Shown: positions 31,012-48,558 of the stretch, one piece after another
Numbering within the stretch: position 1 is the first letter of the stretch
Layout of the letters: each line of letters opens with the position of its first letter
Source of the DNA: Planococcus sp. MSAK28401
GTDB lineage: Bacteria > Bacillota > Bacilli > Bacillales_A > Planococcaceae
Length of the DNA: 64,000 bases
Direction: 5' to 3'
NCBI RefSeq assembly: GCF_018283455.1
Contig: NZ_JAAMTH010000001.1
Span: 805,501 to 869,500 of the forward strand
The notes under the pieces: generated by a model
Told to the model about the DNA's origin: nothing
Seen by the model: only the letters and a program-made list of their open reading frames with translations
Databases searched by the model: none
Position numbers and translations under genes: made by a program

Positions 31012-31073
31012 GCTTCATTTTTTCTGCTGGGCCTGCCGTCGCAATGCACCCTTTTTCAGGGATTTCTTCCAAA

Positions 31074-31099
31074 GTTTAGAGACAATTCATTGCGGGAAA
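31074..31099 (+). promoter_or_regulatory. Candidate sigma-B promoter
   Basis: GTTTAG, 14 bp, GGGAAA, 57 bp before the start of a general-stress-like protein. It matches the Bacillus sigma-B pattern GTTTAA-N12..15-GGGWAW. The gene's family in Bacillus is sigma-B dependent, which strengthens the call. Confidence 0.75.
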
Positions 31100-31155
31100 C
31101 TAAGAGACTGTACTTAATTAATCGCAGGTTACTAGTTGAATGGAGGAGAAAGAAG

Positions 31156-31665: not shown

Positions 31666-31680
31666 AAGGAAAGAACGAAT

Positions 31681-31717
31681 AAACAGCATCCGTTTTCAAA
31701 TGGGATGCTGTTTTTTA
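31681..31717 (+). terminator. Intrinsic terminator
   Basis: AAACAGCATCC/GGATGCTGTTT followed by TTT. Confidence 0.9.
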
Positions 31718-31796
31718 TTGATGAAAAATTATGATAAACTTAAACTGGAAATGGATGATAGTGGAAGAACAGTTGAATTCCACAAGGAGGGCTTAA

Positions 31797-32051
31797 ATGA
31801 AGAAAAGCTTTGAATTCACACATGAAGGCCGACATATCGTCATTGAAAATCGATGGTTTGAAGGCGAAAAGTTATTCGTGGACGGCCAATTGCAGGATGA
31901 AAATCTGGGGCTCAGTTTTGGCGGGGAGTTGAACGGCAAGCTGAAAACCTCCGAAGGCATAAAAGACTTGAAAGCCACTGTCGGCGGTTTTTTTACGATC
32001 GAGTGCAAAGTGTTCGTCGATCATCGATTGGCATACTCCAGCAAGGCATAG
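31797..32051 (+). CDS. Hypothetical small protein
   Basis: 84 residues, soluble, rich in beta-strand-like stretches (RHIVIENRWFEGEKLFVDGQ, LGLSFGGELNGKL). The AAGGAGGG site 5 bp before the ATG and its own spacing from neighbours support it being expressed. No family recognised. Confidence 0.65.
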   Translation: MKKSFEFTHEGRHIVIENRWFEGEKLFVDGQLQDENLGLSFGGELNGKLKTSEGIKDLKATVGGFFTIECKVFVDHRLAYSSKA

Positions 32052-32108
32052 GCAATTCAATGGCTTAATTTGAGATTAGAAAAATTGCAGCGAAAGGGGT
32101 GATATCAG

Positions 32109-32201
32109 ATGGCAATCCGTAATCAATTGTCAGCGTCAGGAACGACTCACGCAAAGCCTGTATGGAATGGCGATCCTTTGTGTGGGGCAAGCAAGAATTG
32201 A
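32109..32201 (+). CDS. Possible 30-residue peptide gene
   Basis: ATG with AAAGGGGTG upstream; the 30-codon frame ends in LCGASKN. There is no similarity I recognise. It lies between two solid genes. Support is only the ribosome site, so it is a low-confidence gene. Confidence 0.3.
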   Translation: MAIRNQLSASGTTHAKPVWNGDPLCGASKN

Positions 32202-32278
32202 ATCGCCCATCACGCGTCATTTCAGCACACGGCTTCCTTATTAAATAAAAGAATCTACTTTATAAGGAGTGTCTTACA

Positions 32279-32965
32279 ATGACGCAAACAGAACAGAACC
32301 GTGCTGAGAACAACATCGCCGGTAGACGGGTGGAAGCATTCATCCGCAATGACCAGTTTAACTTTATCAAAAACCAGGCAAAAATCCTGGTCCATGGCAA
32401 GGCGACGAGCAACGACCGGGAAGTAGTGAATGTACTGCGGCATTTGGCACAGGAAAAGGTTTCCGCCTTGTTTCCATCAGTTACTGAAGAACAAGCATCG
32501 CTGCTTGGGCAATTGACCGATATAGCAGATCAAGCGCATGCAGATGCTTATTTGGAACAGTTGGAACAATATCTTCTGCCGTTCAAACAAGTGTCGCCTG
32601 CAGGATTGAAGAAGCTTTTTCCGAAAGCGAAAAAGCTGAAAGGGCCGAAGCTTGAGTCACTGGATTTTAAGCGCACATCTTATTTGGGATGGATTGAAAG
32701 TTCAAATTTGATGTACTTGGTAACGGAGCAAGACGGGCAGCTGCAGGGAATCCATGGCAGCTTCACACGCAGTTCGAAACAAGGCATCTGCTCGATCTGC
32801 AACCGCCATAGTGAGGTCGGCATGTTCATCGCGAAGACGAAAGGATCCACTCAGGATCATTTCATCAAGCGCGGCAATTATATTTGCCAGGACAGCGAAG
32901 TCTGCAATGAAAATATCGATACCTTGGATCGTCTGAATGAATTCGTCTGGCGTTTGAAAAAATAA
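32279..32965 (+). CDS. FusB/FusC-like elongation factor G-binding protein
   Basis: 228 residues. An N-terminal helical part (~1-115) is followed by a treble-clef zinc-finger domain whose ligands include CSIC and the pair in YICQDSEVC. The FBP C-terminal signature TRSSKQGICSICNRHSEVGMF is typical. FusB-type proteins bind EF-G, free it from ribosomes stalled by fusidic acid and give low-level resistance. Chromosomal homologues are common in Bacillales, so resistance is not implied. The ATG follows AAGGAG; a terminator follows. Confidence 0.88.
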   Translation: MTQTEQNRAENNIAGRRVEAFIRNDQFNFIKNQAKILVHGKATSNDREVVNVLRHLAQEKVSALFPSVTEEQASLLGQLTDIADQAHADAYLEQLEQYLLPFKQVSPAGLKKLFPKAKKLKGPKLESLDFKRTSYLGWIESSNLMYLVTEQDGQLQGIHGSFTRSSKQGICSICNRHSEVGMFIAKTKGSTQDHFIKRGNYICQDSEVCNENIDTLDRLNEFVWRLKK

Positions 32966-32973
32966 AGAACCAG

Positions 32974-33006
32974 AAAGCTCTCCGGCATGTGCTGGAGAGC
33001 TTTTTT
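32974..33006 (+). terminator. Intrinsic terminator
   Basis: AAAGCTCTCC/GGAGAGCTTT followed by TTT, 9 bp after the EF-G-binding protein gene. Confidence 0.92.
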
Positions 33007-33159
33007 GCATGAAAATTTTTTTAGCTTCAACGGGTTGAGCAGTGTTAAAAAGAAGGCTTAGGGGTATTTTATTTATGGCTAGAAACTTTGTCACTGCTGC
33101 CGGCGCACCTTGTCTGGGAAATGCCAAAACCAATTGTGTTTTTGGAGAGGGTGGGTTCG

Positions 33160-34392
33160 ATGGAGCCGGAAAAGAACAAAACGGCGTTCAGCCTTGCCGC
33201 TTCGTGGTTCGTGAGGTGGGTGCTGAATAATAAAGCGGTATCCGTACTGGTCATTCTGTTATTGATCCAAGTGAACATCCTGCTGCTGCCGAGGATCAGC
33301 TTCATTTTCGCACCGCTATTTGCATTGATCAGCGTCATGGGGCTGCCGCTGATCATGGCCGGGGTATTGTATTATTTGCTGAGCCCGCTGATTGATTGGA
33401 TGGAAACGAAAAAAATCAACAGGCTCGGCGGCATTACGATTGTCTTCGTAGTGATTCTCGGCTTGCTCGCATGGGGCGTTACGGCTTTGATCCCGGTAAT
33501 CCGCGAACAATCACTGAGCTTGCTGGAAAACTGGCAGGATTATTTAGCCAGCTTTATCGCCAAGATCGATACATTTTTTGAAAGTGAGTTTTTGGCAGGA
33601 CTGCAGGAACAATTAACCGGGGAAGAAGGCGGCATCACGGCCACGATTACTGATCAAGTCGGTGGGTTTTTCGGTTCAACAGTGAGCGGCATCGGCAATG
33701 TATTCGGCATCGTAACGACGACCGTCTTGGCCTTGATCACGACGCCTTTTATCTTGTTCTATTTATTAAAGGACGGCCATCACCTGCCGTATCATATTAT
33801 GAAATTTGTGCCTTCGCATATGCGGGAACAGACCTACCGCTTGCTGCGCGAAATGAATATGCAGATCAGCCAGTATATCCGTGGCCAGCTGCTCGTCGCA
33901 TTTTTTGTCGGGCTGATGTTCTGGATTGGCTTGAGCATCATCGGCCTGGAGTACGCGCTGACGCTTGGGATTTTGGCAGGTGCCTTGAATTTAATTCCAT
34001 TTCTCGGGACCTTTATCGCGGTCATTCCGATCTTCATCATCGCCATTGTCCTGCATCCACCGCTTATGCTTTTGAAAGTGCTGATTGTGTTCATTATCGA
34101 ACAGACATTGGAAGGGCGCGTTGTGCAGCCGCTTGTCCTCGGAAGCAGCTTGAATATCCATCCGGTGACGATCATCGCCGTGCTGCTGACAGCTGGGAGC
34201 TTATTCGGTTTGCCCGGCGTCATCATCGGGATACCGGCCTATGCAGTTCTCAAAGTAGTTCTCGTGCATTTATTCAAATGGTACCAATCCTATACGGGCA
34301 TGTATGCCGATGATTACAATCCAGCCCCAAAGCCCTTGGTTTCCGAAAAGAAAAAGAAGAAGCTGCTGAAACGGAAGAAGAAAATGACTTAG
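33160..34392 (+). CDS. AI-2E family transporter
   Basis: 410 residues from the ATG at 33160, which has GGAGAGGGTG upstream; the longer reading from 33088 has no good site. A PF01594 membrane protein with about eight spans. Characteristic stretches are ITTPFILFYLLKDG and LEGRVVQPLVLGSSLNIHP. Family members transport varied substrates, some being sodium/proton antiporters, so the name does not establish autoinducer transport. The C-terminal tail is strongly basic (KKKKKLLKRKKK). Confidence 0.85.
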   Translation: MEPEKNKTAFSLAASWFVRWVLNNKAVSVLVILLLIQVNILLLPRISFIFAPLFALISVMGLPLIMAGVLYYLLSPLIDWMETKKINRLGGITIVFVVILGLLAWGVTALIPVIREQSLSLLENWQDYLASFIAKIDTFFESEFLAGLQEQLTGEEGGITATITDQVGGFFGSTVSGIGNVFGIVTTTVLALITTPFILFYLLKDGHHLPYHIMKFVPSHMREQTYRLLREMNMQISQYIRGQLLVAFFVGLMFWIGLSIIGLEYALTLGILAGALNLIPFLGTFIAVIPIFIIAIVLHPPLMLLKVLIVFIIEQTLEGRVVQPLVLGSSLNIHPVTIIAVLLTAGSLFGLPGVIIGIPAYAVLKVVLVHLFKWYQSYTGMYADDYNPAPKPLVSEKKKKKLLKRKKKMT

Positions 34393-34423
34393 TTTTCAAC
34401 GAGCGATGGAGCGGTCGCGCAGG

Positions 34424-34460
34424 CAAAAAAAATCCCGGCCATGAGAATTTGGCCGGGAGT
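34424..34460 (-). terminator. Bidirectional intrinsic terminator
   Basis: CCCGGCC/GGCCGGG stem between convergent genes. The minus-strand copy ends in eight T, so it mainly serves the sulfurtransferase. Confidence 0.9.
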
Positions 34461-34469
34461 GTTCTTCAA

Positions 34470-35345
34470 TTAGCGAGTTTCGCTTTTGATGACTGGGCAA
34501 GACGGGTCGCTTGTCCATTCGTTCATGGAGCCGTCGTATACGGCAACATTCGGCTGTCCGAGTTTATTCAGCAATAAAGCGTTCCAGGTTGCTGCGATGC
34601 CGCCCCCGCAATACGTGATGACTTTTTTGCCGGGATCGAGCGCACCGGTCTGTTCAAAGGCAGCACGCAGTTTTTCATCATTGTACAAGGCTTTTGTCTG
34701 TTCGTCTGCAAGGTCTGCGAAAAAGACGTTTTGGCTGCTTGGGATGTGGCTGCCTTCATATTCTTCCGGCGACAAGCTGTCGATAAGAATGGTTTGTTCG
34801 TCATCGATGGCTTTTCGGACGTCTTCTTTCGTGGCGAGCATATCGCTGCGCCGCTGCCCTGAGAAGCTGGCTTTTGGATAGGGCGCTGCGTCTGTTGATA
34901 GGTCGCGGCCTTCCGCCTGCCATTTTTGCAAACCGCCTTCTAAAATGGCGATTTGATCAAATCCTTCATAGCGCAGCTGCCACGCGAGGCGCGAAGCCCA
35001 GTACGAAGCGGCAACCGATTCGCCGACGAGTGCGTTTTGGTCATAGACGACGGTGCGTGTGCCGTCGCCGATGCCAAGCTCGGTCATTTTTTCGATAAAT
35101 GCATCACGCGGCGGAACGGTGAACGGCAGATCCGATTCGCTGTCCGTCAACTCCCCGAGTAAATCAGCATACACCGCTCCCGGGATATGGCCTTGTGCAA
35201 AGGACTCTTTGCCGGATTCGACATCCGGCGGCCCACCAGCTTCCGGAAACTTCATGAATACCGTCGCATCCACAATCCGTAAATCTGGATCATTCAAATG
35301 TTCTGCTAGCCAATCGGTTGTCACGATCAATGGAATATCATTCAT
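34470..35345 (-). CDS. Sulfurtransferase with two rhodanese domains
   Basis: 291-residue cytoplasmic enzyme transferring sulfur from thiosulfate or 3-mercaptopyruvate to an acceptor. The N-terminal inactive domain (GHIPGAVYADL) is followed by a catalytic one with GSHIPSSQNV and the active loop YCGGGIAA at Cys246. The GGGIAA loop resembles the thiosulfate-type subset rather than the usual mercaptopyruvate CG(S/T)GVTA. The ATG follows AGGAGG. It is monocistronic. Confidence 0.88.
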   Translation of the reverse strand: MNDIPLIVTTDWLAEHLNDPDLRIVDATVFMKFPEAGGPPDVESGKESFAQGHIPGAVYADLLGELTDSESDLPFTVPPRDAFIEKMTELGIGDGTRTVVYDQNALVGESVAASYWASRLAWQLRYEGFDQIAILEGGLQKWQAEGRDLSTDAAPYPKASFSGQRRSDMLATKEDVRKAIDDEQTILIDSLSPEEYEGSHIPSSQNVFFADLADEQTKALYNDEKLRAAFEQTGALDPGKKVITYCGGGIAATWNALLLNKLGQPNVAVYDGSMNEWTSDPSCPVIKSETR

Positions 35346-35486
35346 CTAAGAAATCCTCCTTCGCGTAATTGTCTTTACTGTACGCTTTTAGCGAGAACCT
35401 CGTCAAAAAATAAGTTTCTAAAACCGATTCGCATTCGTGCTATGTCAATGTAATGGCCCATTATTTTCCGGAAGGGAGAGAAGCCC

Positions 35487-36026
35487 ATGATTTATGCAGC
35501 GCTGCTTCGCGGAATCAATGTCGGCGGTAATAATAAAATCAATATGAAAGAACTGAAAGAAGCGTTCGAACAAGCAGGCATGTCGTCGGTCAAAACGTAT
35601 ATCAACTCAGGGAATATCATCTTCAAAGACGCCCGGAATAAAGAGCAAGTGACGCTTGTGTCGGAACAGGCGATTTTTGAACATTTCGGGCTGCGCATCA
35701 AGGTGCTCGTTTATTCATTCGAAGAATACAAGCGCATTGCACAAGCGGTCCCGCCGGAATGGACCAACGATGAAGGATTGAAAAGCGATGTGCTGTTTTT
35801 ATGGGAACAAGCCGATGATGAACACGTGTTGGAGCAATTGCCTTTGAAGCCAGGTATTGACCGCGTGCAATACGTGCCCGGAGCAATTCTTTGGTCGGTT
35901 GACCGAGGGGATGTCACCAAAAGCGGAATGGCGAAAATCGTCGGGACCAAATTATATAAGCTGGTCACCGTCCGAAATGTGAATACCGTCCGCAAAATTT
36001 ATAGGCTAATGGAGGAACTGAAATAA
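35487..36026 (+). CDS. DUF1697 domain protein
   Basis: 179 residues. The hallmark N-terminus is MIYAALLRGINVGGNNKINM, with YINSGNIIF soon after and a C-terminal IVGTKLYKLVTVRNVNTV. Family function is unknown. The ATG follows GGAAGGGAG. Possibly followed by the SDR gene on the same transcript, 82 bp on. Confidence 0.85.
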   Translation: MIYAALLRGINVGGNNKINMKELKEAFEQAGMSSVKTYINSGNIIFKDARNKEQVTLVSEQAIFEHFGLRIKVLVYSFEEYKRIAQAVPPEWTNDEGLKSDVLFLWEQADDEHVLEQLPLKPGIDRVQYVPGAILWSVDRGDVTKSGMAKIVGTKLYKLVTVRNVNTVRKIYRLMEELK

Positions 36027-36108
36027 AAATAGCCAAAATATATTTCTTATTGATGGATAATTCTGATAATATAAGATTGATACAAAATATGGAAGTGGAG
36101 GCGATAAG

Positions 36109-36849
36109 ATGGAGTTGGCAGGCAAAGTGGCAGTGGTGACAGGCGGAGCTTCTGGAATTGGATTGGCGGCGGCAAAAGCATATTTAGCGAAAGGCGCCAA
36201 AGTGGTCGTTGCCGATTTTAATGAAGAAGGCGGCAAACAGGCGGCAGAGAGCTTGAAGAACGATGGCGACATCCTGTTCATTAAAGTGGATGTGGCAAGC
36301 GAAGATTCGGTGAAAGCGATGATTGATTTCGCGATCGATCAGTTCGGCACAATTGACCTGCTCGTAAGCAACGCCGGCATCGGTGCGTTGACGGAGACGC
36401 ATGAGCTGAGCTATGAAGATTACCATAAAGTCATTGCGGTCAATCAGGACAGTATCTTCTTTGGCGCAAAGCACGCAATCCGCCATATGATGAATAATGG
36501 AGGCGGCGCCATCATCAATACTTCATCGATTCTTGGAAGTGTCGGCGAAGGAGCAGCATTTGCCTATAACGCATCAAAAGGTGCGGTTAACCTCATGACG
36601 AAATCCCTGGCGCTCCAATATGCCAAGCACAATATCCGCGTCAATGCCGTCGCGCCGGGCTATGTCGAATCCGGCATGGTGAGCCGTGAAGCGCTCGGCG
36701 AAGAGTTCTACGGGCAGCTGGTCAGCAAGCATCCGATCGGCCGTCTCGGTAACGCGGATGAAATCGCCCATGCCATCATTTTCCTTAGTGAAAATGACTT
36801 CACCACCGGCACGACGATCTTGGTCGATGGGGGCTATACCGCACAATGA
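36109..36849 (+). CDS. Short-chain dehydrogenase/reductase (SDR)
   Basis: 246-residue classical SDR. TGGASGIG is at residues 11-18, SNAG at 87-90, Ser140, and Tyr153/Lys157 as the catalytic pair. The C-terminal FTTGTTILVDGGYTAQ closes the family fold. Asp35 after strand 2 (VVVADF) suggests a preference for NAD over NADP. The ATG is preceded by GGAGGCGA. A terminator follows. Substrate unknown; paralogous to the SDR near the window start. Confidence 0.9.
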   Translation: MELAGKVAVVTGGASGIGLAAAKAYLAKGAKVVVADFNEEGGKQAAESLKNDGDILFIKVDVASEDSVKAMIDFAIDQFGTIDLLVSNAGIGALTETHELSYEDYHKVIAVNQDSIFFGAKHAIRHMMNNGGGAIINTSSILGSVGEGAAFAYNASKGAVNLMTKSLALQYAKHNIRVNAVAPGYVESGMVSREALGEEFYGQLVSKHPIGRLGNADEIAHAIIFLSENDFTTGTTILVDGGYTAQ

Positions 36850-36874
36850 ACTGAAATGAAACAGCAGTTTGCAT

Positions 36875-36919
36875 AACACCCGTGCTTTGGATTAGCTATC
36901 CAAAACACCGGTGTTTTTT
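36875..36919 (+). terminator. Intrinsic terminator
   Basis: AACACC-GTG...TTGGAT/ATCCAA...CAC-GGTGTT followed by TTTT. Confidence 0.88.
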
Positions 36920-37135
36920 GATTTTCCTGGCTTGGGGGCGCAGACAAGTTTCATCAGCACTTGCCGAGCGGAAACTAGGTGAGGCGAAAGAAGGGTTTCC
37001 TTTAAAATACATAAGTTCAGAAAACATAAGGGCCCTGCAGGTGATATGATTAGAAGATACGATCGACAGCGAAAACTCGAAGAAACCAGCCGGGCTATTG
37101 GGCTTTTTCAGTTTGGCAGAACAGGTGATGACACA

Positions 37136-40100
37136 ATGGCAACGCAGACAAACACATACCAGACGTCTATACGTCTAACTAAAACCGCATCGGAAAAGAT
37201 GAGAGGGTTCGGCATCAGCGAACGCTCATTTTTTATGGCGGACAAACCGTTTCAGGTATTTCTTGAACGCTATCCGTCGACTGCGGATGGCTCTCTTTCG
37301 GTTGCGCTGCTGTTCAGTGCAGAACAGACAGGGCGGCTGACGGATCAGGCAAATGGGCAACTCGCTGTGCTTCACTGCGTGTTTGCCAACCATCAACTGT
37401 TGGTGACCAATGTGACTTTGCGCAAAGCCTACCAGGCACTCGGCACCAATTGGCAGCGCGAGGAATCGATTCAGTTCAACAATTCGCGCGATCCGGTGCC
37501 GGTGGCGTTCATGAATTTGATCAACCGGATGACGCCGGCGAAAGAGCGTTCGGATTACGTGAAAAAGCGCATCTCGAGCTGGGAAGGCTATTTAAAAATC
37601 CAAGAACAGGGCATGGATATTCCAGATATCAAGACGGGCTATTCGAATCTGGCGTTCAGCCATGATTTCAGCCGCATCACCTTGACGGGCTGTCGCATGG
37701 ACGACAAAGAATGGAAAAACCTGCGCAATTTGAGCGTCCGCTTGACGGGGATCGACGGCGATGTCGGCAGTGTCCTCAAGACGAAAAACCGGGCGATCGA
37801 AATCGAATTGAATCCATACATCATCAAGCAGCTGCGCGAAAAAGCGCATGCTCTTCATAAGAAGGAAGTCGTGTTCAGCAATTTCGCGGCACTCAGCCAA
37901 ATCCGGAGGTTGCGCCAAGGCTTTACCAATCTCGAGAAAGGCCTCGCGGTTAACCCGCAACTCGACCGCCTGTTGTTCGAGGAACGGCCCAATGTGGCGC
38001 CGTTAAAAGAAATGCCTAAGCTCGCGTTCCACAACCGCTTGAATGAATTCCAGCAGCAAGCTGTGACAGGGGCGATGTCAGCGGAAGATCTCTACGTTAT
38101 ACAAGGGCCTCCCGGAACCGGCAAGACGACGGTCATTTCAGAAATCTGCCTGCAAAACGCCAAAAAAGGCTTGCGCACACTCGTCGCTTCCCAGTCGAAT
38201 CTGGCAGTCGACAATGCGCTCGGGCGTTTGCTTGCCCATAAAGACATCCGCATCTTGCGCGTCGGGCGCACCGAAAGCATCGAAGAAGACGGCCAGAAAT
38301 TCATCGAAGAAAACGTTGGCCAGTATTGGAAAGACCATACCTTAAAAGAAATCACGGCACAGTTCGAGGCGCGTAAAGCCCGCGAACAAGAAGTTGCCCA
38401 CAAGCTTGAAGAAACGGAACAGGCCTATGCAGAATTGCAGCCGGTTTTTGAAAAATGGCAGCAAGCCGTGGAAGATAAAAAGGCAGCCCAAGCGAAACAG
38501 CGCGAATTGCAGTCGTCCATCGAACCGTTGCAAAACAAAACACGGGCAATCGAGCTCGAACAGCGGCAAGCAAGAAGTCGCAAGCAAAGCATCCAAGAGA
38601 AAATGGATGTTCTGCAAGCGAAGATCCAGAAAGCGCAGGGCTTGATTGATAGCGGGCATGGGCCCGAATGGTTCGAACAGCAACAGCGGCAAACAGCCGA
38701 AACGATCGAGCAGCTCGAACGCGTACGCGAGTCCACTGAGCTGACCAAACAGCTGTCAGCACTCCGCCGCGAGATGGCATTGATTGAAGAAAAGCGCGAC
38801 GAAGTGATGGCGAAAGCTAAGGAAAAGCAAGCCGTGCTCGAAACAGTCGAGGGCATGAAAAAAGTCGGCAGCTTGCTTGATATGATGAATGAACAGCAGA
38901 TCGAAGAAGTGCCGGCGATCACTTTCTCACTCAGCAAGCTCGATATGATCCGCGACAAGATGGCAGAGCGCAAAAAACTCGAAGCCTATAATACCAGTGT
39001 CACTTCAGCAATCGGCTATGTCGAGAAATTGCTGGGGGGTTCTGGCATCGATGCGGCGCAAGTGAAAGAACGCGCCTTGTCGCAAGCGGAATCGTTCACC
39101 TCGGCCAATATCGATGAGTTTCTGGAAAAGCTGCGCGCGGTGCTGAAAAATTCGCAGCACATCGATTCGAGCGTTCTCACGAAAGCGCTGAGCGGCTTAT
39201 ACAAACGGCAGAACGACGTGTGGCGGAGAGGCGCGATGCTAAAAGCCGCCGATGTTTATATAGAAGAGTCGCAACGTGCATTTGGCCAATTGAAAAAAGC
39301 GCTGTGCATGGAACTCGAAAAGCAAAGGCAGCGCTACTTGGACTTGGACGAACGAGGACTGGAACAAGCGGAACGGCAACGTGCAGAACTTTCGCGCATC
39401 GAACGGCGAGTGGCCAGTTTGTCCGTCTCGCTTGAAGTGCCGGAAGATATCGCACAGGCAATTGCCGATCACCAAACCCAATTGGCGCAGCTCCAGAAAG
39501 ACCAAAGTGATTCCGTCCAAACGGCAGCGGATTTGGAGCAACAGCAAGCCAATTTGCTCGCTGAACAAACAGCATTTGAGAAAGCCGAACAGCGAATCGT
39601 GGAGATTGCAGCGCAACTTGACATGGCGATGCGGCGTCTAACAGAGAAAGAGCAGGAACTTCAAGCTTTGGAAACCATTCTTTTGGCGGATCCGGAAGCG
39701 GCATACGAAGAAACCGCGAAACAACTCGCCAGTTTGTCATTCGATGTGGAATCGCTCAAGCAAGAGCAGAAAAACTTCCCCTTATTGCAATCGGTGCAAA
39801 AGCAGTGGATCGGGCTGCTCGAGTCGGCGAATGAGCACGATTTGGATGAAATCCGCAAGCTCTACATCAAACACGCCAATGTCATCGGCACGACTTGCGT
39901 AGCATCTGCGCGCAAGGATTTCCAGGACAATTATCCGGTATTCGATGTCGTCATTATCGATGAAGTGTCGAAAGCGACACCTCCTGAACTATTATTGCCG
40001 ATGCTCAAAGGCAAAAAGGTCATTTTGGTCGGGGACCACCACCAATTGCCGCCATTGCTCGGCAACGATACCTTGGAAGAGACTTTAGAAGAGATGATCA

Positions 40101-40900
40101 AAGAGGGCAGCGGCTTTGAAGAAAAGCGCGAACTCGAAAAACTGCTCGAAGAATCGTTGTTCGAACGCTTGTATAAAAACTTACCGGAGACTAACAAGAC
40201 GATGCTCGCCATTCAGTACCGCATGCATGAAGACATCATGGAAACCATTTCGCCATTCTACAAAGACGAAAATGTCCAATTGCAATGCGGCTTGGCTGAT
40301 TCAGACAAAGAACGCGACCATTTCCTTGAGTCGGCATCCGTCAAACGCCACAATCACCTGATGTGGCTCGATTTGCCGAACGAACCGGCGTATTTCGAAG
40401 AACGCATGAGCGGCGGGAAAAGCTTGTACAATCAGTCGGAACTTGCGGAAATCAGCCGTCTGCTGGTGGAACTTAACGACGCGACGGCCGAAGCGAAAGC
40501 GGCCGGGCGGATTCCAGCGGACGAGCTGAAAACCGTCGGCGTCATTTCGTTCTACGGCGAACAAGTAAAGCGGCTACAGCGCATGATCGACCAGGAAATG
40601 CGCTTGCCGCATTTATTGCTCCGCACCGGCACGGTCGACCGATTCCAGGGCAGTGAAATGGAGATTATCCTCCTGAGCATGGTGCGCAATAACCACAATG
40701 ACCGCGGCGATATCGGCTTCGCGAAAGATTACCGCCGATTGAACGTCGCGTTGTCGCGCGCCAAGCAATTACTCGTGATGGTCGGCAGTTCCGCGATGTT
40801 CACAAAACGTGCGAAAAAAGAACAGACAAAACAGATGTATCAGCATGTGCTCGACGTGGCCGAACAAAAACACGGCGTAAAAGTGCTGCAGAAGGGGTGA
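37136..40900 (+). CDS. Large SF1 (Upf1/Dna2-like) helicase with inserted coiled coil
   Basis: 1254 residues if started at the ATG at 37136, which has AGGTGATG 8 bp upstream; the in-frame ATG at 37046 has a poorly placed site. The N-terminal ~300 residues are unrecognised. Walker A GPPGTGKTT is at 324-332, and motif Ia is ASQSNLAVDNAL. Then ~490 residues of Gln/Glu/Lys-rich heptad-like coiled coil separate this from motif II IIDEVSKATP (Asp942) and motif III GDHHQLPPLL. QYRMHEDI, TVDRFQGSEME and RRLNVALSRAK complete the ATPase and helicase core. It is followed after 4 bp by a partner gene. Function unknown: DNA repair, RNA metabolism or defence are all conceivable. Confidence 0.88.
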   Translation: MATQTNTYQTSIRLTKTASEKMRGFGISERSFFMADKPFQVFLERYPSTADGSLSVALLFSAEQTGRLTDQANGQLAVLHCVFANHQLLVTNVTLRKAYQALGTNWQREESIQFNNSRDPVPVAFMNLINRMTPAKERSDYVKKRISSWEGYLKIQEQGMDIPDIKTGYSNLAFSHDFSRITLTGCRMDDKEWKNLRNLSVRLTGIDGDVGSVLKTKNRAIEIELNPYIIKQLREKAHALHKKEVVFSNFAALSQIRRLRQGFTNLEKGLAVNPQLDRLLFEERPNVAPLKEMPKLAFHNRLNEFQQQAVTGAMSAEDLYVIQGPPGTGKTTVISEICLQNAKKGLRTLVASQSNLAVDNALGRLLAHKDIRILRVGRTESIEEDGQKFIEENVGQYWKDHTLKEITAQFEARKAREQEVAHKLEETEQAYAELQPVFEKWQQAVEDKKAAQAKQRELQSSIEPLQNKTRAIELEQRQARSRKQSIQEKMDVLQAKIQKAQGLIDSGHGPEWFEQQQRQTAETIEQLERVRESTELTKQLSALRREMALIEEKRDEVMAKAKEKQAVLETVEGMKKVGSLLDMMNEQQIEEVPAITFSLSKLDMIRDKMAERKKLEAYNTSVTSAIGYVEKLLGGSGIDAAQVKERALSQAESFTSANIDEFLEKLRAVLKNSQHIDSSVLTKALSGLYKRQNDVWRRGAMLKAADVYIEESQRAFGQLKKALCMELEKQRQRYLDLDERGLEQAERQRAELSRIERRVASLSVSLEVPEDIAQAIADHQTQLAQLQKDQSDSVQTAADLEQQQANLLAEQTAFEKAEQRIVEIAAQLDMAMRRLTEKEQELQALETILLADPEAAYEETAKQLASLSFDVESLKQEQKNFPLLQSVQKQWIGLLESANEHDLDEIRKLYIKHANVIGTTCVASARKDFQDNYPVFDVVIIDEVSKATPPELLLPMLKGKKVILVGDHHQLPPLLGNDTLEETLEEMIKEGSGFEEKRELEKLLEESLFERLYKNLPETNKTMLAIQYRMHEDIMETISPFYKDENVQLQCGLADSDKERDHFLESASVKRHNHLMWLDLPNEPAYFEERMSGGKSLYNQSELAEISRLLVELNDATAEAKAAGRIPADELKTVGVISFYGEQVKRLQRMIDQEMRLPHLLLRTGTVDRFQGSEMEIILLSMVRNNHNDRGDIGFAKDYRRLNVALSRAKQLLVMVGSSAMFTKRAKKEQTKQMYQHVLDVAEQKHGVKVLQKG

Positions 40901-40904
40901 GCAA

Positions 40905-41654
40905 ATGGACAAATTGAACAATAAGCTGCGCGCAGAAGTGGCGTCGAACAAGGACGTGACGATCGTAAAAGAACTTTCGTGGCATGTGCCGCTGGTTTCC
41001 TATGAAGTGTCGTTTGCCCGCGTCAAGCGGCTCAAAATGGACATTTTGATGAAGATGCTGCTGCTGGCATTTCAAGAAGCAGACATCCGCCGCCCTGCAG
41101 CGCTCGCTGAGATGCTATTTGTCGAAGAGCTGTTCATCCGCGATTTAATCGATAAAATGCACAGCACGCAGTTGATCCGCCTGGATGCAAAAGGCTACCG
41201 GCTGACCGATAAAGGTTACGGCCATTTGGAAAAAGGCATTTTCGAAGAAGCGATGGAAGACGATGAGGCCATCGTGTCTTTCAGTGCCGTGCACGATAGT
41301 TATGGGCTGTCAGAAGATGTGCTTGAAGAAGGTAGGCAAAACTTATCCTCCTATCGCTATGCAATTAGCCAGAATACTGATACCGAGCGCATCCATGAGC
41401 TGTTAACGGCAGAAAAAAACAGTGCAGAAGATGGCTATCAAGTGATCGTCGCGGACATTTCATCGTGCGAAGAACTTGGCACTGAATACATTCCGTGCAT
41501 CGAGTTTCAATTATATGACCAAAAACAGGACCTCTTCTACGCGCGTGTCTGGAACACCCGGCTCGGCGCGTGGGATGAGGTGCTCGAAAAGCAAATTGAA
41601 GAAAAGGAACTTGTCGAATGGCGCGAAGCGATGAAAAATGCGGAACCGTCTTAA
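40905..41654 (+). CDS. Unrecognised partner of the SF1 helicase
   Basis: 249 residues. AAGGGGTGAG before the ATG overlaps the helicase stop, so translation is coupled. Residues ~45-110 look like a winged helix: a helix pair ALAEMLFVEELFIRDLIDKM, then LIRLDAKGYRLTDKGYGHLE. An acidic C-terminal half contains Trp- and Tyr-rich strands (FYARVWNTRLGAWDEVL). No nuclease or ATPase motif is visible. Position alone suggests it loads or regulates the helicase. No family recognised. Confidence 0.8.
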   Translation: MDKLNNKLRAEVASNKDVTIVKELSWHVPLVSYEVSFARVKRLKMDILMKMLLLAFQEADIRRPAALAEMLFVEELFIRDLIDKMHSTQLIRLDAKGYRLTDKGYGHLEKGIFEEAMEDDEAIVSFSAVHDSYGLSEDVLEEGRQNLSSYRYAISQNTDTERIHELLTAEKNSAEDGYQVIVADISSCEELGTEYIPCIEFQLYDQKQDLFYARVWNTRLGAWDEVLEKQIEEKELVEWREAMKNAEPS

Positions 41655-41670
41655 CTAGCCGCTTTAAACT

Positions 41671-41698
41671 TTGAATTTCCGGAAAATGGGAGTACAAT
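41671..41698 (+). promoter_or_regulatory. Candidate sigma-A promoter of the LTA synthase gene
   Basis: TTGAAT, 16 bp, TACAAT, about 70 bp before the ATG. Confidence 0.65.
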
Positions 41699-41770
41699 AG
41701 AGTTTGTTTCTTTAAAGCAGGCACACAAGCTTGCCTTCAGATAATCGATGATGAAAAGGTGTAATGCAAA

Positions 41771-43708
41771 ATGAAAAATAAAATGATAATGAATAACTAC
41801 ATGCCCTTATTTCTCTTGGCAGTTGTCATGTTGTGGGCGAAGACCTATATCTCGCAAAAAACCCAATTTACGCTGGAAGTGGAAGGGGCGCTGCAGGAAT
41901 TCCTGTTGGCAATCAACCCTTTAGGTTCAGCACTGCTATTGTTGAGTTTCTCGCTATTCTTCAAAGGAACGCGGAAATACTGGGCGCTGCTTTCGATTTA
42001 CCTCGGCATGTCGATCTTGCTGTATGCAAATGTCGTCTATTACCGCTTCTTCAGTGATTTCATCACGTTGCCGACTTTGTTCCAAACACAGAACTTCGGC
42101 GATTTGGGCGGCAGCGTCCTGACTCTGATCCAACCGATGGATTTCCTGTACTTCGTGGATGTATTGCTTCTCGGTGCATGGGTAATCTCTAAGCGGACAG
42201 AAAAAGATATGCGCATCATCAAAAAGAGAATGGCCTTGCCGTTAATTGCGGCGGCTTTGTTGATTTCCCTCTTTAATTTGTCGCTCGCAGAATCAGACCG
42301 TCCCGACCTGTTGACACGCGGCTTTGACCGTGCGTATATCGTCAAGTATTTGGGAATGTATAATTACGCCCTATACGACACGGCGGAGACCTTGAAAGCT
42401 TCTTCCCAGCGGGTCATGGCGGACAGCGACGACAATACGGAAGTATTGAACTACACGAAATCCAATTACGCGAGTCCGAATGAAGAATATTTCGGTGCAG
42501 CGGAAGGCATGAACGTTGTCTATTTGCATCTCGAATCGTTCCAGACTTTCCTGATGGATTATGAACTGAATGGCGAAGAAGTCACGCCGTTCTTGAATTC
42601 GATGATGGATGACCCGAATACGATGTACTTCGATAATTTCTTCCATCAGACAGCGCAAGGCAAAACTTCAGATGCGGAATTCATGCTGGAAAACTCCTTA
42701 TTCGGCTTGCCGAAAGGATCTGCATTCATTACAAAAGGCCAGAACACGTATCAATCGGCTCCAGCCATCTTGAAAGATGAAGGCTATACGTCGGCTGTAT
42801 TCCATGGCAATAATGGGACGTTCTGGAACCGCTCTGAAATCTACAAGTCTTTCGGCTACGATTATTTCTTCGATATCGAATCGTATCCGAATACGACATC
42901 CGCTGATATGGCAGAATACGGCTTGATGGATAAACCATTCTTCGAGCAGTCGGCACCGCTTTTGGAATCGCTGCCGGAGCCGTTCTATTCGAAATTTATC
43001 ACCGTTTCGCATCATTTCCCTTATAAAATGGACCAGCAACTGGCGACCATCGAAAAAGGAACGACAGGCGATGCGAGCGTCGATAATTATTTCCAGACGG
43101 CTCGTTATGCAGACGAAGCAATCAAGCAATTTTTCGAACAGCTTGAAGCGTCGGGACTTGCGGACAATACGATGATCGTCATGTACGGCGACCATTACGG
43201 CATTTCCGACAACCACAACGAGGCGATGTCTGAGGTATTGTCAAAAGACATCACGCCGGTAGAGAACGCCAAGCTTCAGCGCGTGCCGTTGTTCATCCAC
43301 GTACCGGGCATGGAAGGCGGCATCAACGACACATACGGCGGCCAGATTGACCTATTGCCGACCGTGATGCATCTGCTCGGTGTGGAAACGCAGAATTACG
43401 TGCATTTCGGAACCGATCTATTGTCGGAAGAACATGAAGAACTCGTCATGTTCCGCAACGGCGATTACGTCAGCCCTGAAGTCTATTCCATCGGCGAAGC
43501 GTTCTACGATTCGGAAACCGGCTTGCCACTCGAAGATGAACAACAGCTCGAGCAAGCCGAGACCCTTAAGCAGCACGGAAGATATGAATTGCAGCTATCG
43601 GATGAAGTCGTCAACGGCGACTTGTTGAGATTTTACACGCCGAACGGCTTTACGCCGGTCGACCCGGCGGATTATTATTACCAGCAATCCACAGATTCAA
43701 CTGAATGA
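41771..43708 (+). CDS. Lipoteichoic acid synthase family protein (LtaS type)
   Basis: 645-residue membrane phosphoglycerol transferase that polymerises glycerol-phosphate from phosphatidylglycerol. Five N-terminal spans (to ~residue 180) precede an extracellular sulfatase-like domain. The catalytic Thr299 lies in GKTSDAEF; metal ligands include the Glu of HLESFQ and the Asp-His of MYGDHYGIS. DLLPTVMHLLGV is a family landmark. The signal-peptidase site usual after the spans is not obvious. Bacillales often have several paralogues, so primary or stress-type role cannot be told. Confidence 0.92.
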   Translation: MKNKMIMNNYMPLFLLAVVMLWAKTYISQKTQFTLEVEGALQEFLLAINPLGSALLLLSFSLFFKGTRKYWALLSIYLGMSILLYANVVYYRFFSDFITLPTLFQTQNFGDLGGSVLTLIQPMDFLYFVDVLLLGAWVISKRTEKDMRIIKKRMALPLIAAALLISLFNLSLAESDRPDLLTRGFDRAYIVKYLGMYNYALYDTAETLKASSQRVMADSDDNTEVLNYTKSNYASPNEEYFGAAEGMNVVYLHLESFQTFLMDYELNGEEVTPFLNSMMDDPNTMYFDNFFHQTAQGKTSDAEFMLENSLFGLPKGSAFITKGQNTYQSAPAILKDEGYTSAVFHGNNGTFWNRSEIYKSFGYDYFFDIESYPNTTSADMAEYGLMDKPFFEQSAPLLESLPEPFYSKFITVSHHFPYKMDQQLATIEKGTTGDASVDNYFQTARYADEAIKQFFEQLEASGLADNTMIVMYGDHYGISDNHNEAMSEVLSKDITPVENAKLQRVPLFIHVPGMEGGINDTYGGQIDLLPTVMHLLGVETQNYVHFGTDLLSEEHEELVMFRNGDYVSPEVYSIGEAFYDSETGLPLEDEQQLEQAETLKQHGRYELQLSDEVVNGDLLRFYTPNGFTPVDPADYYYQQSTDSTE

Positions 43709-43717
43709 TTCAAAGAG

Positions 43718-43752
43718 ATGCCCCGAACCATTTTCTGGTTCGGGGCATTTAT
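43718..43752 (+). terminator. Intrinsic terminator
   Basis: Thirteen-bp stem ATGCCCCGAACCA/TGGTTCGGGGCAT, then TTTATTT. Confidence 0.92.
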
Positions 43753-43894
43753 TTGAATTTAAATGGAATTTTTCCGAGTGATTGGCCAACTTCATTGGCA
43801 AAAGCTTTCAAAAGAGAGATAATGGCGATAATCAAACATCATCGTCGTCGAACAGGAGATAACTGCTGCAAAACCTGAAAAGGAGCTGATCGGC

Positions 43895-44509
43895 ATGGCA
43901 CAGAAACTGACGATTTTCGGAGCAATCGCTGTGTTTTTCTACGTTTTCCACGTCGTGCTGGGAGGATGGCTGTGGGAAGGCTATCGCCATTTGCATCAGC
44001 CAATCAGCGATTTGACGGCTCAAGGCGCGCCGGACCGCAGGGTATTGACCGTTATTACGCTGTTGTACGGCATCTGTTCGATTGTATTTGCGGCGAGTGC
44101 TTATATCGCATTCAAACGCTTTGCGCCGAAAATTTCACGCATAGGCATGCTGGTTTTTCTGGTAATGCATCTCGTGTCGATTACCTACGGCTTGTTTCCG
44201 CAAGACGCCCCGGGAGCCCCGTTGAGCTTTACCGGCATGATGCATTTGACGGTCACGGTCTTGATCGTTCCGCTGACGATCCTGGCGCCGTTTTTGGTCG
44301 GGATCGGGGTGAGAAAAGATCGCGATTTCAAAGTATACGGACAGTATTCCATCGCAACAGGCGTGTTCATCTTGATTGCCGGCGGAACGACCGCGATCTT
44401 TTTCGCGCAGGGCTGGCCGTATTTCGGTCTTGTCGAACGGCTCAATATCGGTGCGCTGCAACTATGGATGCTCATTAGTTCACTTATGCTTTTTACTATG
44501 AAACAATAA
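43895..44509 (+). CDS. DUF998 membrane protein
   Basis: 204 residues with six hydrophobic spans. HQPISDLTAQGAPDRRVL after the first span and LFPQDAPG in the middle loop are typical of the DUF998 family of unknown function. The ATG follows AAGGAG. Likely co-transcribed with the small zinc-ribbon gene 37 bp downstream. Confidence 0.82.
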   Translation: MAQKLTIFGAIAVFFYVFHVVLGGWLWEGYRHLHQPISDLTAQGAPDRRVLTVITLLYGICSIVFAASAYIAFKRFAPKISRIGMLVFLVMHLVSITYGLFPQDAPGAPLSFTGMMHLTVTVLIVPLTILAPFLVGIGVRKDRDFKVYGQYSIATGVFILIAGGTTAIFFAQGWPYFGLVERLNIGALQLWMLISSLMLFTMKQ

Positions 44510-44546
44510 ATGAACCTTGAATCTAAGATTAAAGGAGCGACAGGAT

Positions 44547-44699
44547 ATGTTCTCGTTTTTTAAGAAGAAATGCGCGGTGTGCAAACAAAAAGCACGGCAG
44601 CCGCGGAAATATTATAACGACCGCGATGAAGCGGTCGTCGTCTGTGCGCAATGCGCCATATACGCCGAAAGACGCGCGTTCCGGAAACGCAGTGCATAA
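44547..44699 (+). CDS. Small CxxC zinc-ribbon-like protein
   Basis: 50 residues from the ATG at 44547 with AAAGGAG upstream. Two cysteine pairs (CAVC and CAQC) 28 residues apart suggest a zinc ribbon. The rest is strongly basic (KKK, RRAFRKR). No family assigned. The next feature downstream is a hairpin element/IS end 7 bp away. Confidence 0.65.
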   Translation: MFSFFKKKCAVCKQKARQPRKYYNDRDEAVVVCAQCAIYAERRAFRKRSA

Positions 44700-44706
44700 A
44701 ACAGAA

Positions 44707-44752
44707 GGGGCTGTCCCAAAAGGTCATGAAAAGTGACTTTTAGGGGCAGTCC
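44707..44752. repeat. Dispersed hairpin element, copy 2 / IS1182-like end
   Basis: GGGGCTGTCCCAAAAGGTCA with a partly complementary TGACTTTTAGGGGCAGTCC. Related to the hairpins at 29119-29171 and 62815-62868, and its first 16 bp match the right end of the IS1182-family element. Confidence 0.65.
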
Positions 44753-44773
44753 ATTTTCGTCTTCTAAAGAAAA

Positions 44774-44902
44774 GGCTGATGTCCATTTCGACGGACGCTT
44801 TCCGCGGGCACGGCCTTAGCCTCTTCCCTCGCTTCGCTCAGTCCAGGGTCTTCGGCTCGCGCTGTTCCCGCTGGAGTCGCCGTCTCCATTCCCATCAGCC
44901 GG
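44774..44902 (-). repeat. bcr-like dispersed intergenic repeat, copy 2
   Basis: Inverted, ~20 bp shorter relative of the repeat at 10398-10548: shares GGCGACTCC-GCGGGA, GAAGACCCTG, CCCGCGGAAAGCGTCCGTC and the GCTGATG/CATCAGC ends. Lies between the apparent left IS end and the transposase gene. Confidence 0.85.
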
Positions 44903-44988
44903 TTTAAAAAGAAAAAAGGATACAAAAAAATCGTCCATTTCTGTAAAATGGGAGTTACCACACCACCATTAGAGAAAGGACGATTTTT

Positions 44989-46809
44989 ATGTGCAATCCG
45001 AAGATTACTTCCTCAAATTATAACACTGAACAAGCCGCATTTCCACTCGCTCTGGGAGAAGGAACTGGCGTTCCGCTATCCAAAAAAGCGAGTCCTACGT
45101 TCATTCCCTATAACAACCAACAAGGCTTTGCCATCTTTGATATACAAGATCTTGTGCCAGCCAACCATGTCGCCCGGGTCATCGACGAAATGGTGGAATT
45201 GATTGATGATGAGCTGTTTTTCGCGCACTATAAAGGCGGCGGAAGAAGCTCTTTCCATCCAAAGATGATGACCAAAGTTATCCTTTACGCTTATTCGAAG
45301 AAAATCTATTCTTCTCGAGGTATTGAAGAAACACTTACTGAACACATTCCGTCCATGTGGCTCGCAGCTGGCCAACAACCAGATCACCGAACGATTAACC
45401 GGTTCCGTTCGGACCACTTAAAAGCGATGATGGACTCCCTTTTTGAACAGATGATTCACCAGCTGATCGAACAGAACTACATCACTATGGAGCATTATTT
45501 TTTGGATGGCACCAAAATTGAAGCTGATGCCAATAAGTATTCATTCGTCTGGAAAAAAGCGACACAGAATTTCGAAGGCAAGTTGAAGGTAAAGATTGCC
45601 GAAACGATTCAGCATATCCATGAACTGGCCGCAGCTGAAGCGATTCCACTCAACGAACAGGTAGAAGAAGCAACGCCTGAACAGCTGGAAGAAATGGCGG
45701 AAGCCATGGAAGAACAGATTGACGCATTCACGGAAGCCCTTGATCTGGAAGACGATACCGAAAAACGAAAGCAACTCCGGTCCAAGCGCAGTGAGTGGAA
45801 AAAGCCGGTCAAAGCGATTCGCGAAGATTTCCTTCCGCGTCTGGAGAAATATAGTCAGTACCACGAGATCTTCGGTGATCGAAACAGCTTTTCGAAAACA
45901 GACCCGGATGCGACCTTTATGCGAATGAAAGATGATCACATGAAAAATGGTCAATTGAAAGCAGCTTATAATGTACAAATGGCCACAGAAAATCAGTTCA
46001 TTCTTTATTATTCGATACATCAGCGACCAACGGACACGCGCTGTTTTCTTCCGCATCTGGAGAAACTAGCGGCTTCCAGCCTGCCCATGCCGAAGACGGT
46101 CATTGCCGATGCAGGCTATGGCAGTGAAGAGAATTACCTGTATGCGTTGGGCGATGAAAAAGAGCCGCATTTCGACTTTCTCATTCCATATGGAATGTAT
46201 CTGAAGGAAAAATCAGCGAGTTACAAGAAGAATATCAAACACGCGAAAAATTGGACATACCTAGAGGAGGAAGATTGTTTCATCTGTCCGAATGGTCGGC
46301 GTGTCGCATTTAAAAAATACCTGAATAAAAAGAATGCCTCCGGTTACGAACAAAACTTAAAAATCTATGAATGCGAAGACTGTTCGGATTGTCCGTTAAA
46401 AGCCCTCTGCACGAAAGCAAAAGGCAACCGACAAGTCCAATGGAATCCCATTTATGAAGAAATGAAAGCGAAGGCCAAAGCAGCTCTTGAAGATGAAACG
46501 AAGACACAAATCTACGCCCAACGCAAAATTGACGTAGAAAGTGTGTTCGGTCATATCAAGGGCAATCGGTCGTTCCGCCGATTTCTCCTCCGGGGCTTAG
46601 AGAAAGTGCATACAGAGTTCGGGATTGTGGCATTGGCCCACAACCTCCTGAAAGTAGCCGGCATGCGCCGGCTACTTTCAGTGACCTCACCAATAAATGA
46701 AAAACAGACGGAGAAAAAGAAATTCTTTTTCTCCGTCTGCTTTATTTTAGGGGCTTATGGGACAGCCCCTTTTCATGTTAAAGGAAGTTTCGTTTTCCGC
46801 TATAATTAA
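44989..46809 (+). CDS. IS1182-family transposase
   Basis: 606 residues, ATG after GAAAGGA. The N-terminal DUF772-like region (PANHVARVIDEMVELID, FHPKMMTKVILYAYSKKIYSSRGIE) has a first Asp in YFLDGTKIEADANKY. A charged coiled-coil insert (~200-290) precedes the core Asp in VIADAGYGSEENY. The C-terminal domain has a cysteine cluster (CEDCSDCPLKALC) and the Glu in IDVESVFGHIKGN. The frame runs through two hairpins and the right terminal repeat, ending 40 bp past the element, so the last ~14 residues are host-derived. Confidence 0.92.
   Translation: MCNPKITSSNYNTEQAAFPLALGEGTGVPLSKKASPTFIPYNNQQGFAIFDIQDLVPANHVARVIDEMVELIDDELFFAHYKGGGRSSFHPKMMTKVILYAYSKKIYSSRGIEETLTEHIPSMWLAAGQQPDHRTINRFRSDHLKAMMDSLFEQMIHQLIEQNYITMEHYFLDGTKIEADANKYSFVWKKATQNFEGKLKVKIAETIQHIHELAAAEAIPLNEQVEEATPEQLEEMAEAMEEQIDAFTEALDLEDDTEKRKQLRSKRSEWKKPVKAIREDFLPRLEKYSQYHEIFGDRNSFSKTDPDATFMRMKDDHMKNGQLKAAYNVQMATENQFILYYSIHQRPTDTRCFLPHLEKLAASSLPMPKTVIADAGYGSEENYLYALGDEKEPHFDFLIPYGMYLKEKSASYKKNIKHAKNWTYLEEEDCFICPNGRRVAFKKYLNKKNASGYEQNLKIYECEDCSDCPLKALCTKAKGNRQVQWNPIYEEMKAKAKAALEDETKTQIYAQRKIDVESVFGHIKGNRSFRRFLLRGLEKVHTEFGIVALAHNLLKVAGMRRLLSVTSPINEKQTEKKKFFFSVCFILGAYGTAPFHVKGSFVFRYN
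46648..46740 (+). repeat. Two strong hairpins inside the 3' end of the transposase gene
   Basis: A perfect 15-bp stem CTGAAAGTAGCCGGC with its complement (46648-46681) is followed 24 bp later by a second stem CAGACGGAGAAAAAG with its complement (46706-46740), then a T-rich stretch. Both overlap the reading frame. Confidence 0.85.
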
Positions 46810-46838
46810 AGAAACCATAGTTATGGAAGGGGAAGCGC

Positions 46839-47774: not shown

Positions 47775-47783
47775 TAAGCCATA

Positions 47784-47832
47784 GCAAAAAGCTGTTCCAC
47801 AGATGCTAATTATCTGCGGAACAGCTTTTTTT
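47784..47832. terminator. Bidirectional intrinsic terminator
   Basis: AAAAAGCTGTTCC...GGAACAGCTTTTT stem-loop between convergent genes. Confidence 0.92.
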
Positions 47833-47846
47833 AATGAGCCTTCCTT

Positions 47847-48557: not shown

Positions 48558-48558
48558 A

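Follow-up and report, generated by a model that had tools for sequence, protein, structure and literature searches.

A UPF1-like helicase with a long coiled-coil arm and its winged-helix partner in Planococcaceae, a probable relative of the Mokosh and CoCoNuT machines

The description of the CoCoNuT systems in 2024 introduced a class in which a UPF1-like helicase with a helical insertion is followed by an elongated winged helix-turn-helix (wHTH) protein fused to an effector. An AlphaFold2 multimer model of CnuH/CnuE by the same authors suggests that the wHTH contacts the insertion (PMC11090510). In the Mokosh systems, MkoA and MkoC have been assigned to the UPF1 subfamily of superfamily 1 (SF1) helicases (PMC10925250), and PLD is listed for Mokosh (PMC10952713). 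The mechanism of Mokosh is given as unknown in a 2026 review (PMC12926258), and degradation of viral transcripts is reported in one paper (PMC11291487). One survey places Mokosh in 93.8% of the genomes of the B. cereus group, mostly as type II not called by DefenseFinder (PMC11811056). Here, a two-gene locus of Planococcus sp. MSAK28401 is compared with these systems. It lies in a stretch of 64,000 nucleotides (contig NZ_JAAMTH010000001.1, positions 805,501 to 869,500, forward strand), referred to as the window, and encodes an SF1 helicase with a long coiled-coil arm and a small protein with a winged helix, termed the partner. The two proteins would be relatives, probably sisters, of the MkoA/MkoB and CnuH/CnuE machines without a recognized kinase or nuclease. 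The original prediction, made by a model from the letters of the window alone, had regarded helicase and partner as unrecognized. This has to be corrected, as the arrangement is already in print for CnuH/CnuE (PMC11090510) and both proteins resemble MkoA/MkoB. As to membership of both proteins in a characterized family with a known role, named at the time as one result that would overturn the prediction, the relatives have family names, but the searches made revealed no role for this lineage. Likewise, the papers listed in literature searches on Mokosh/MkoA, CnuH/CnuE, PLuB, UPF1-like coiled-coil and Planococcaceae helicases included no account of it.

Architecture of the helicase and its partner

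The helicase gene begins with an ATG at 37136, an alternative longer in-frame start being located at 37046, and ends with a stop codon at 40898–40900. The features of the pair are the following:

37136–40900, + strand: SF1 helicase of the UPF1/IGHMBP2 class, 1254 amino acids (Pfam, profile scores, alignment, AlphaFold2, structural search)
37136–37525, + strand: helicase residues 1–130, basic alpha/beta N-terminal domain (secondary structure of the model; isoelectric point (pI) 8.9)
37544–38035, + strand: helicase residues 137–300, aligned to the N-terminal part of IGHMBP2/UPF1 (4b3f alignment from model residue 139)
38105–38131, + strand: motif I (Walker A), GPPGTGKTT, helicase residues 324–332 (invariant in 21- and 43-row alignments)
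38189–38215, + strand: motif Ia, SQSNLAVDN, helicase residues 352–360 (S354 nearly invariant, the others invariant in the same alignments)
38306–39823, + strand: predicted helical coiled-coil arm, helicase residues 391–896, with a basic multi-helix tip at ~574–704 (AlphaFold2 model)
39959–39964, + strand: motif II, D942–E943 (DEVSKATPPE; same alignments)
40031–40054, + strand: motif III, GDHHQLPP, helicase residues 966–973 (same alignments)
40634–40762, + strand: motifs V and VI, helicase residues 1167–1209 (VDRFQG ... RRLNVALSRA; same alignments)
40890–40897, + strand: AGAAGGGG, probable ribosome-binding site for the partner gene, abutting the helicase stop (sequence)
40905–41654, + strand: partner, 249 amino acids, MkoB-N/CnuE-like, no effector domain recognized (open reading frame, Pfam, alignments, structural model)
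41031–41240, + strand: winged helix-turn-helix, partner residues 43–112 (structural model, structural search)
41241–41651, + strand: partner residues 113–249, acidic beta/alpha region in which S127, H130, R214, N217, W223, and D224 are conserved (60-row alignment, model)

Coordinates, motifs, Pfam, and structural matches agree with the Upf1/Dna2-type helicase of 1254 residues that had been proposed. Pfam assigns AAA_11 to residues 302–473 and AAA_12 to residues 1004–1219, leaves the long middle part without assignment, and finds neither a kinase nor a nuclease domain in the protein. The motifs I, Ia, II, III, IV, V, and VI, named after general SF1 nomenclature, are intact and invariant or nearly so across 21 (relatives at 38–88% identity) and 43 aligned rows. 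By sequence, the nearest solved proteins are IGHMBP2, Dna2, and UPF1/NAM7, and the same proteins recur in a structural search with an AlphaFold2 model of residues 1–1200 (46-row alignment; mean predicted local distance difference test (pLDDT) 79, predicted template modeling score 0.56). IGHMBP2 (4b3f) aligns over 497 residues with a Z-score of 27.0 and a root-mean-square deviation of 5.3, starting at model residue ~137–139, followed by Dna2 (Z 23.4), Sen1 (Z 23.3), and UPF1 (Z ~22). Most rows of this search begin at ~133, and none of those listed covers residues 1–95. Of the ~300 N-terminal residues described as unrecognized in the original prediction, only ~1–130 thus retain this status, and those from ~137–139 onwards align structurally with IGHMBP2/UPF1; residues 137–300 presumably represent the stalk and domain 1B. 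An ABC-type ATPase head of the SMC/RecN class is absent, the ATPase being of the SF1 type according to Pfam and the structural search. The protein stays below the cut-offs of two family models: it scores 244.2 bits with NCBIfam TIGR00376 (IGHMBP2 family helicase; curated cut-off 348.9) and 188.2 bits with NF040671 (PLuB helicase-like; curated cut-off 999).

The core is split between motifs Ia and II by a predicted arm of ~505 residues, close to the ~490 residues of coiled coil originally suggested. Its predicted helices span residues 391–504, 510–573, 705–761, 772–849, and 853–896, with the multi-helix stretch at ~574–704 in their midst. The spacing from Walker A to motif II amounts to 607–642 residues in all 43 aligned relatives including the window, so that the arm constitutes a conserved feature and not a product of chance. 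With an identity of 0.44–0.45 in the arm versus 0.93 and 0.80 in the two parts of the core, the arm retains its length as its sequence diverges, in the manner of coiled coils. In the window, tip (pI 9.2) and N-terminal domains are basic and the shafts of the arm acidic; similarity to MukB and JetC is confined to coiled-coil stretches of the arm. With ~180 residues of helix each way, the modeled arm would reach roughly 25 nm.

The partner starts four bases downstream of the helicase stop, and AGAAGGGG reaches this stop, in keeping with the ribosome site that had been proposed there. Its structural model (60 rows, pLDDT 91.5) comprises an N-terminal helix, a long strand at residues 18–44, the winged helix, which had been placed at ~45–110 and is now located at 43–112, and a beta/alpha C-terminal part. 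Structural matches to the winged helix are SSo2273, MarR proteins, and CggR (best Z 11.3, CggR 11.0, over 67–70 residues). Across the 60 partner rows, R214, N217, W223, and D224 do not vary, and S127 and H130 hardly do. None of the structural rows listed covers residues 113–249 alone, a part that the search barely tested, and missing rows for this part or for helicase residues 1–95 are not evidence of a new fold. The Pfam scan of the partner gave nothing above the cut-offs, neither kinase, nuclease, HEPN, nor PLD. Overall, the partner is an acidic protein (pI 4.7, net charge −19). For the recognition helix, ELFIRDLIDKMHST, the net charge is −1 in the window and averages −0.2 over the 60 rows; basic parts are the wing (net +2) and residues 1–44 (net +4). 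The DNA-binding character attributed to the partner is therefore doubtful: wing and N-terminus agree with it, but the acidic protein and the non-basic recognition helix do not, and its sequence-derived charge argues against ordinary DNA binding. The winged helix may instead serve as a protein-docking module, with nucleic-acid contact being possible.

Relation to Mokosh, CoCoNuT, and other UPF1-like helicases

The best PADLOC match of the helicase is MkoA (7e-114), a model that is matched by all 21 aligned helicases (best 9.4e-117). In a midpoint-drawn tree of 47 rows, based on the second half of the core and containing long branches, the clade of the window (19 rows, support 100/100) adjoins six MkoA proteins (83/70). 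Next outwards are two kinase-less MkoA-like proteins (89/86), followed by helicases of the IGHMBP2 family together with the protein of locus L208 (99/96). Those of L202–L204 are true members of the IGHMBP2 family, scoring 657–689 bits against the cut-off of 348.9, whereas L208 stays below it with 235 bits. On the side of the partner, the MkoB model PDLC03922 matches 13 of 21 proteins (best 3e-8). Partner residues 1–114 align with the N-termini of nine MkoB proteins with a probability of 94.7% and an E-value of 5.9e-8 in hhalign; with six rows instead of nine, these values drop to 84.8% and 6.6e-6, and single MkoB rows give probabilities of 1–21%. A MarR control aligned with the partner at E 1.5e-5 over 52 columns but did not differ from MkoB on the winged helix alone, which weakens the wHTH similarity as proof of kinship with MkoB. 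Homology between the C-terminus of the partner and the middle domain of MkoB is not claimed: a forced alignment is collinear, but the match of this part by itself is not significant (E 0.2). The 300 N-terminal residues of the helicase have no significant match among four MkoA-like N-termini (best E 0.03), and a plasmid search with an MkoB query gave no match.

Several comparator loci were drawn from other classes. A kinase-helicase is accompanied by a PLD protein, as assigned by Pfam, in L175 and by a 591-residue MkoB-type protein without PLD by Pfam in L176; in L177 and L178, the kinase is encoded by a gene of its own (with NERD in L178), and the MkoB-type partners, 733 and 426 residues long, have no Pfam domain. 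The MkoA-like helicases of the latter two loci are kinase-less, and the kinase gene, encoding a NERD-kinase in L178, is located upstream (L177 13316–14641; L178 2493–3953), an arrangement suggesting that kinase and helicase of Mokosh are separable.

The window pair shares with Mokosh type I the order of a helicase and a protein with a wHTH-like N-terminus, MkoA as the nearest relative of its helicase core in the tree (with moderate support), and a partner whose residues 1–114 align with MkoB. It differs in that the kinase domain of MkoA (present in L175 and L176) and the PLD nuclease of MkoB are not found by Pfam, the N-terminal domain lacks detectable similarity, the pair is not seen on mobile elements, and the arm is longer. 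Walker A and motif III are separated by 642 residues in the window versus 336 (L175), 188 (L176), and 320 (L178) in MkoA-like comparators, so that shorter insertions exist in relatives. With CnuH/CnuE of CoCoNuT types II and III as described in print (PMC11090510), the pair has in common an SF1 helicase of the UPF1 type, into which a large helical and in part coiled-coil segment is inserted behind Walker A, and a downstream gene for an elongated wHTH. In contrast to that description, no effector recognized by Pfam (HEPN, PLD) follows the wHTH or resides on the helicase, and the pair has a core distribution in one bacterial family; the comparison is one with the published description. McrB/McrC (CnuB/CnuC) were not among the eight window neighbors scanned, nor among the 25 of 192 Pfam families listed for the neighbors of relatives. 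IGHMBP2, UPF1, Sen1, and Dna2 match the helicase in the fold of the core and in the part preceding motif I (Z ~22–27) but have neither the giant arm nor the extra domain at residues 1–130 nor a dedicated wHTH partner. The PADLOC candidate PDC-S37 matches helicase residues 306–984 including the arm in one continuous stretch (4.2e-8), as it does in 21 of 21 relatives; however, this is a candidate model of 1550 positions, and the similarity is weak and partly of coiled-coil nature.

Distribution and genomic surroundings of the pair

The nearest named relatives of the genome belong to Planococcus. Family names follow GTDB, where the family is called Planococcaceae (Caryophanaceae at NCBI); Psychrobacillus (L146) is counted with it, though NCBI places this genus under Bacillaceae. 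Within the genus, all 36 genomes, that of the window included, encode the partner, and none of 24 genomes of other families from the same draw does. Across 200 genomes of the order, all of which belong to one family, 184 encode the partner and likewise 184 the helicase (E 1e-60 or better). The same 16 genomes lack both genes, and presence is all-or-none per genus (13 genera with, 4 without), numbers that reflect clade-level events rather than 200 independent tests. In the wider class, the partner profile matches 31 of 299 genomes, with G291 as the only full-length case beyond the family and weak partial matches outside it in G055, G239, and G240. Among the named loci, the best 80 of 167, the helicase gene lies directly upstream of the partner on the same strand in every case, and its frame is intact with at least 1234 residues in 78 (L139 is in two pieces, L140 partial); in fetched loci, the pair is adjacent in 20 of 20. 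Conservation of the neighbor beside the helicase, on which the original prediction had staked its claim, is thus seen in 80 of 80 named loci. Two genomes depart from it: in G108 (L182, L183) and G223 (L184, L185) both genes are intact yet separate, on different contigs and ~125 kb apart, respectively, which, as a natural test, suggests that the genes need not be linked. In Halalkalibacter okhensis (L139, 4216–8008), the helicase is divided into two frames of 268 and 983 residues, representing either a real loss or a sequencing error.

With the arm removed, the helicases of Bacillaceae form one clade (98/96) nested within the Planococcaceae rows. Support is weak (80/68) for the branch that unites them with Planococcus alone and strong (100/98) once L031 is included. 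Partner identities to the window follow this order as well, with 44–52% for Bacillaceae (L101–L145) and 30–41% for Planococcaceae outside the genus. The simplest reading would be a single transfer of the two-gene unit into Bacillaceae.

The genes flanking the pair vary, the commonest neighbor family occurring in 20 of 101 loci, and those with names are mostly metabolic, transport, or surface genes. As the original prediction had it, they offer no explanation of the pair. No defense island was seen among the 128 of 245 distinct listed neighbors scanned, in which no PADLOC family matched more than one protein at E 1e-20. The single matches at this threshold concern kinase, RtcR-like, mads_3, subtilase, and DpdF models, chiefly kinase and RtcR-like, and the Pfam families listed for these 128 neighbors (25 of 192) comprise enzymes, transporters, and S-layer/stress domains. 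Partner relatives are absent from 72,556 plasmid records, 50,697 phage records, and viral contigs, where 46 stretches fit a pattern and none encodes such a protein; a mobile origin in this genome was rejected on the ground of the missing plasmid and phage matches. The G+C content is 0.486–0.520 across the pair and 0.446–0.516 in its surroundings. As a control, strong restriction-methylase matches occur in 19 of 44 genomes of the genus versus 44 of 44 for the pair. This control counts matches of E 1e-49 or better by eye, with a threshold set after a gap in the list had been seen; at E 1e-10 the methylase model matches 195 of 200 genomes, weak matches near 1e-13 being nearly universal. The pair thus behaves like a core gene and not like a defense island.

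Control of the pair by LexA as a general feature was rejected, since no site in the window comes closer than 3 mismatches and most loci lack a box; LexA-like boxes with at most one mismatch occur in 4 of 100 loci (0.35 expected from shuffles). In three Planococcus/Planomicrobium relatives (L087, L089, L092), the box CGAACRTATATTCG, with one mismatch, occupies almost the same position, which is ~135 nt upstream of the frame of the helicase. Rfam has no match in window positions 30000–50000. A transposase gene (DDE_Tnp_1_6 and DUF772; 44989–46809) lies ~3.3 kb downstream of the pair in the window, and a protein-kinase-like gene is found upstream of the pair in two of 101 loci (L118 2931–3746; L120 2806–3636). 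Elsewhere in the same genome, ~180 kb from the pair, a second AAA_12 protein (1453-residue frame) is encoded ~6 kb from an N6-methylase gene:

G000:C1:659625-660161 and G000:C1:665660-666571: AAA_12 protein/N6-methylase region

Possible functions of the pair

The interpretation that we favor, at roughly even chances, is that of a chromosomal surveillance complex of the Mokosh/CnuHE class that consists of helicase and wHTH protein without an effector and belongs to the non-mobile core of Planococcaceae. Such a core distribution, together with the absence of a recognized effector, favors standing nucleic-acid surveillance over phage-triggered killing. Both genes would give rise to one complex of the UPF1-like helicase and its small acidic winged-helix partner, the long antiparallel arm with its basic tip being carried by the first RecA-like domain. 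By analogy with the published CnuH/CnuE model, the partner would dock on the helicase, probably on the arm. The motor may move along single-stranded nucleic acid at the expense of ATP, RNA being preferred over DNA as the substrate on the precedent of UPF1/IGHMBP2 and CoCoNuT. The arm would reach a second target, such as the ribosome, RNA polymerase, or the nucleoid, to which the partner might couple ATP turnover.

A number of observations weigh against this interpretation. Support for MkoA as the sister is moderate (83/70), with several long branches in the tree, and other winged-helix defense models match the partners as well (WH_III-A in 8 of 21, PRTase_III-A in 7 of 21). Taken alone, the winged helix fits MarR proteins of the same genome (E 7.9e-7) as well as MkoB (5.6e-7), and the C-terminal half by itself yields a non-significant E of 0.2 against MkoB. 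Nor does Pfam detect a nuclease in the MkoB-like proteins of L176, L177, and L178, which are longer, so that its silence on the window partner constitutes weak evidence. The data do not favor RNA over DNA, the preference for RNA being drawn from analogy. Finally, the pair probably entered Bacillaceae, where it is rare, which fits defense genes too.

This last point, with a unit probably transferred as a whole and chromosomal neighbors that differ widely between species, is also what an antiviral system, the main rival explanation, would predict. The pair would then represent a reduced relative of Mokosh/CnuHE whose helicase and wHTH protein recognize viral nucleic acid and, having no fused nuclease, act, e.g., by unwinding, a translation block, or a host nuclease in trans. 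The best database relatives that have the partner gene are indeed defense proteins (PADLOC; PMC11090510). However, a pair that is near-universal and genus-wide (184 of 200 genomes), surrounded by no defense island among the neighbors scanned, without phage, plasmid, or viral-contig matches, and with neither protein containing a kinase or nuclease domain by Pfam makes this explanation somewhat unlikely. Less probable still, and best described as improbable, is a helicase for DNA repair or recombination whose arm resembles that of SMC/RecN and whose wHTH partner acts as a DNA-binding loader. The MukB- and JetC-like stretches of the arm, Dna2 among the structural neighbors (Z 23.4), the LexA-like boxes of three loci, and the basic wing and residues 1–44 of the partner are in line with this role; yet coiled-coil similarity carries little information, the window itself has no LexA-like box, as is true of most loci, and the partner is acidic as a whole with a non-basic recognition helix. 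The C-terminal part of the partner could also be an unrecognized enzyme with a new effector fold, in which case the system would be complete rather than effector-free. The invariant R214, N217, W223, and D224, the nearly invariant S127/H130, and the lack of listed structural matches over residues 113–249 are compatible with this possibility, but a structural role may explain such conservation too and the search barely tested the partner outside the winged helix; we consider it very unlikely.

A wider and more tentative proposal, possible rather than probable in our judgment, is that an effector-free machine from a mostly antiviral class has become a family-wide housekeeping surveillance complex. 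Its arm of ~25 nm would connect the UPF1-type motor with a distant partner, e.g., the ribosome or RNA polymerase, in what would amount to a bacterial equivalent in kind of RNA surveillance by UPF1. In the pair, the core common to the Mokosh and CoCoNuT machines, i.e., motor, arm, and wHTH adaptor, is isolated, apparently with neither kinase nor nuclease, and conserved in a family that can be cultivated, so that the motor–adaptor step can be studied apart from killing. As judged from the PADLOC models, not from its system rules, homology-based defense annotation could label such a core gene pair "MkoA", which calls for caution. If the pair serves a housekeeping function in Planococcaceae, it would point to traffic between immunity and the maintenance of RNA or DNA.

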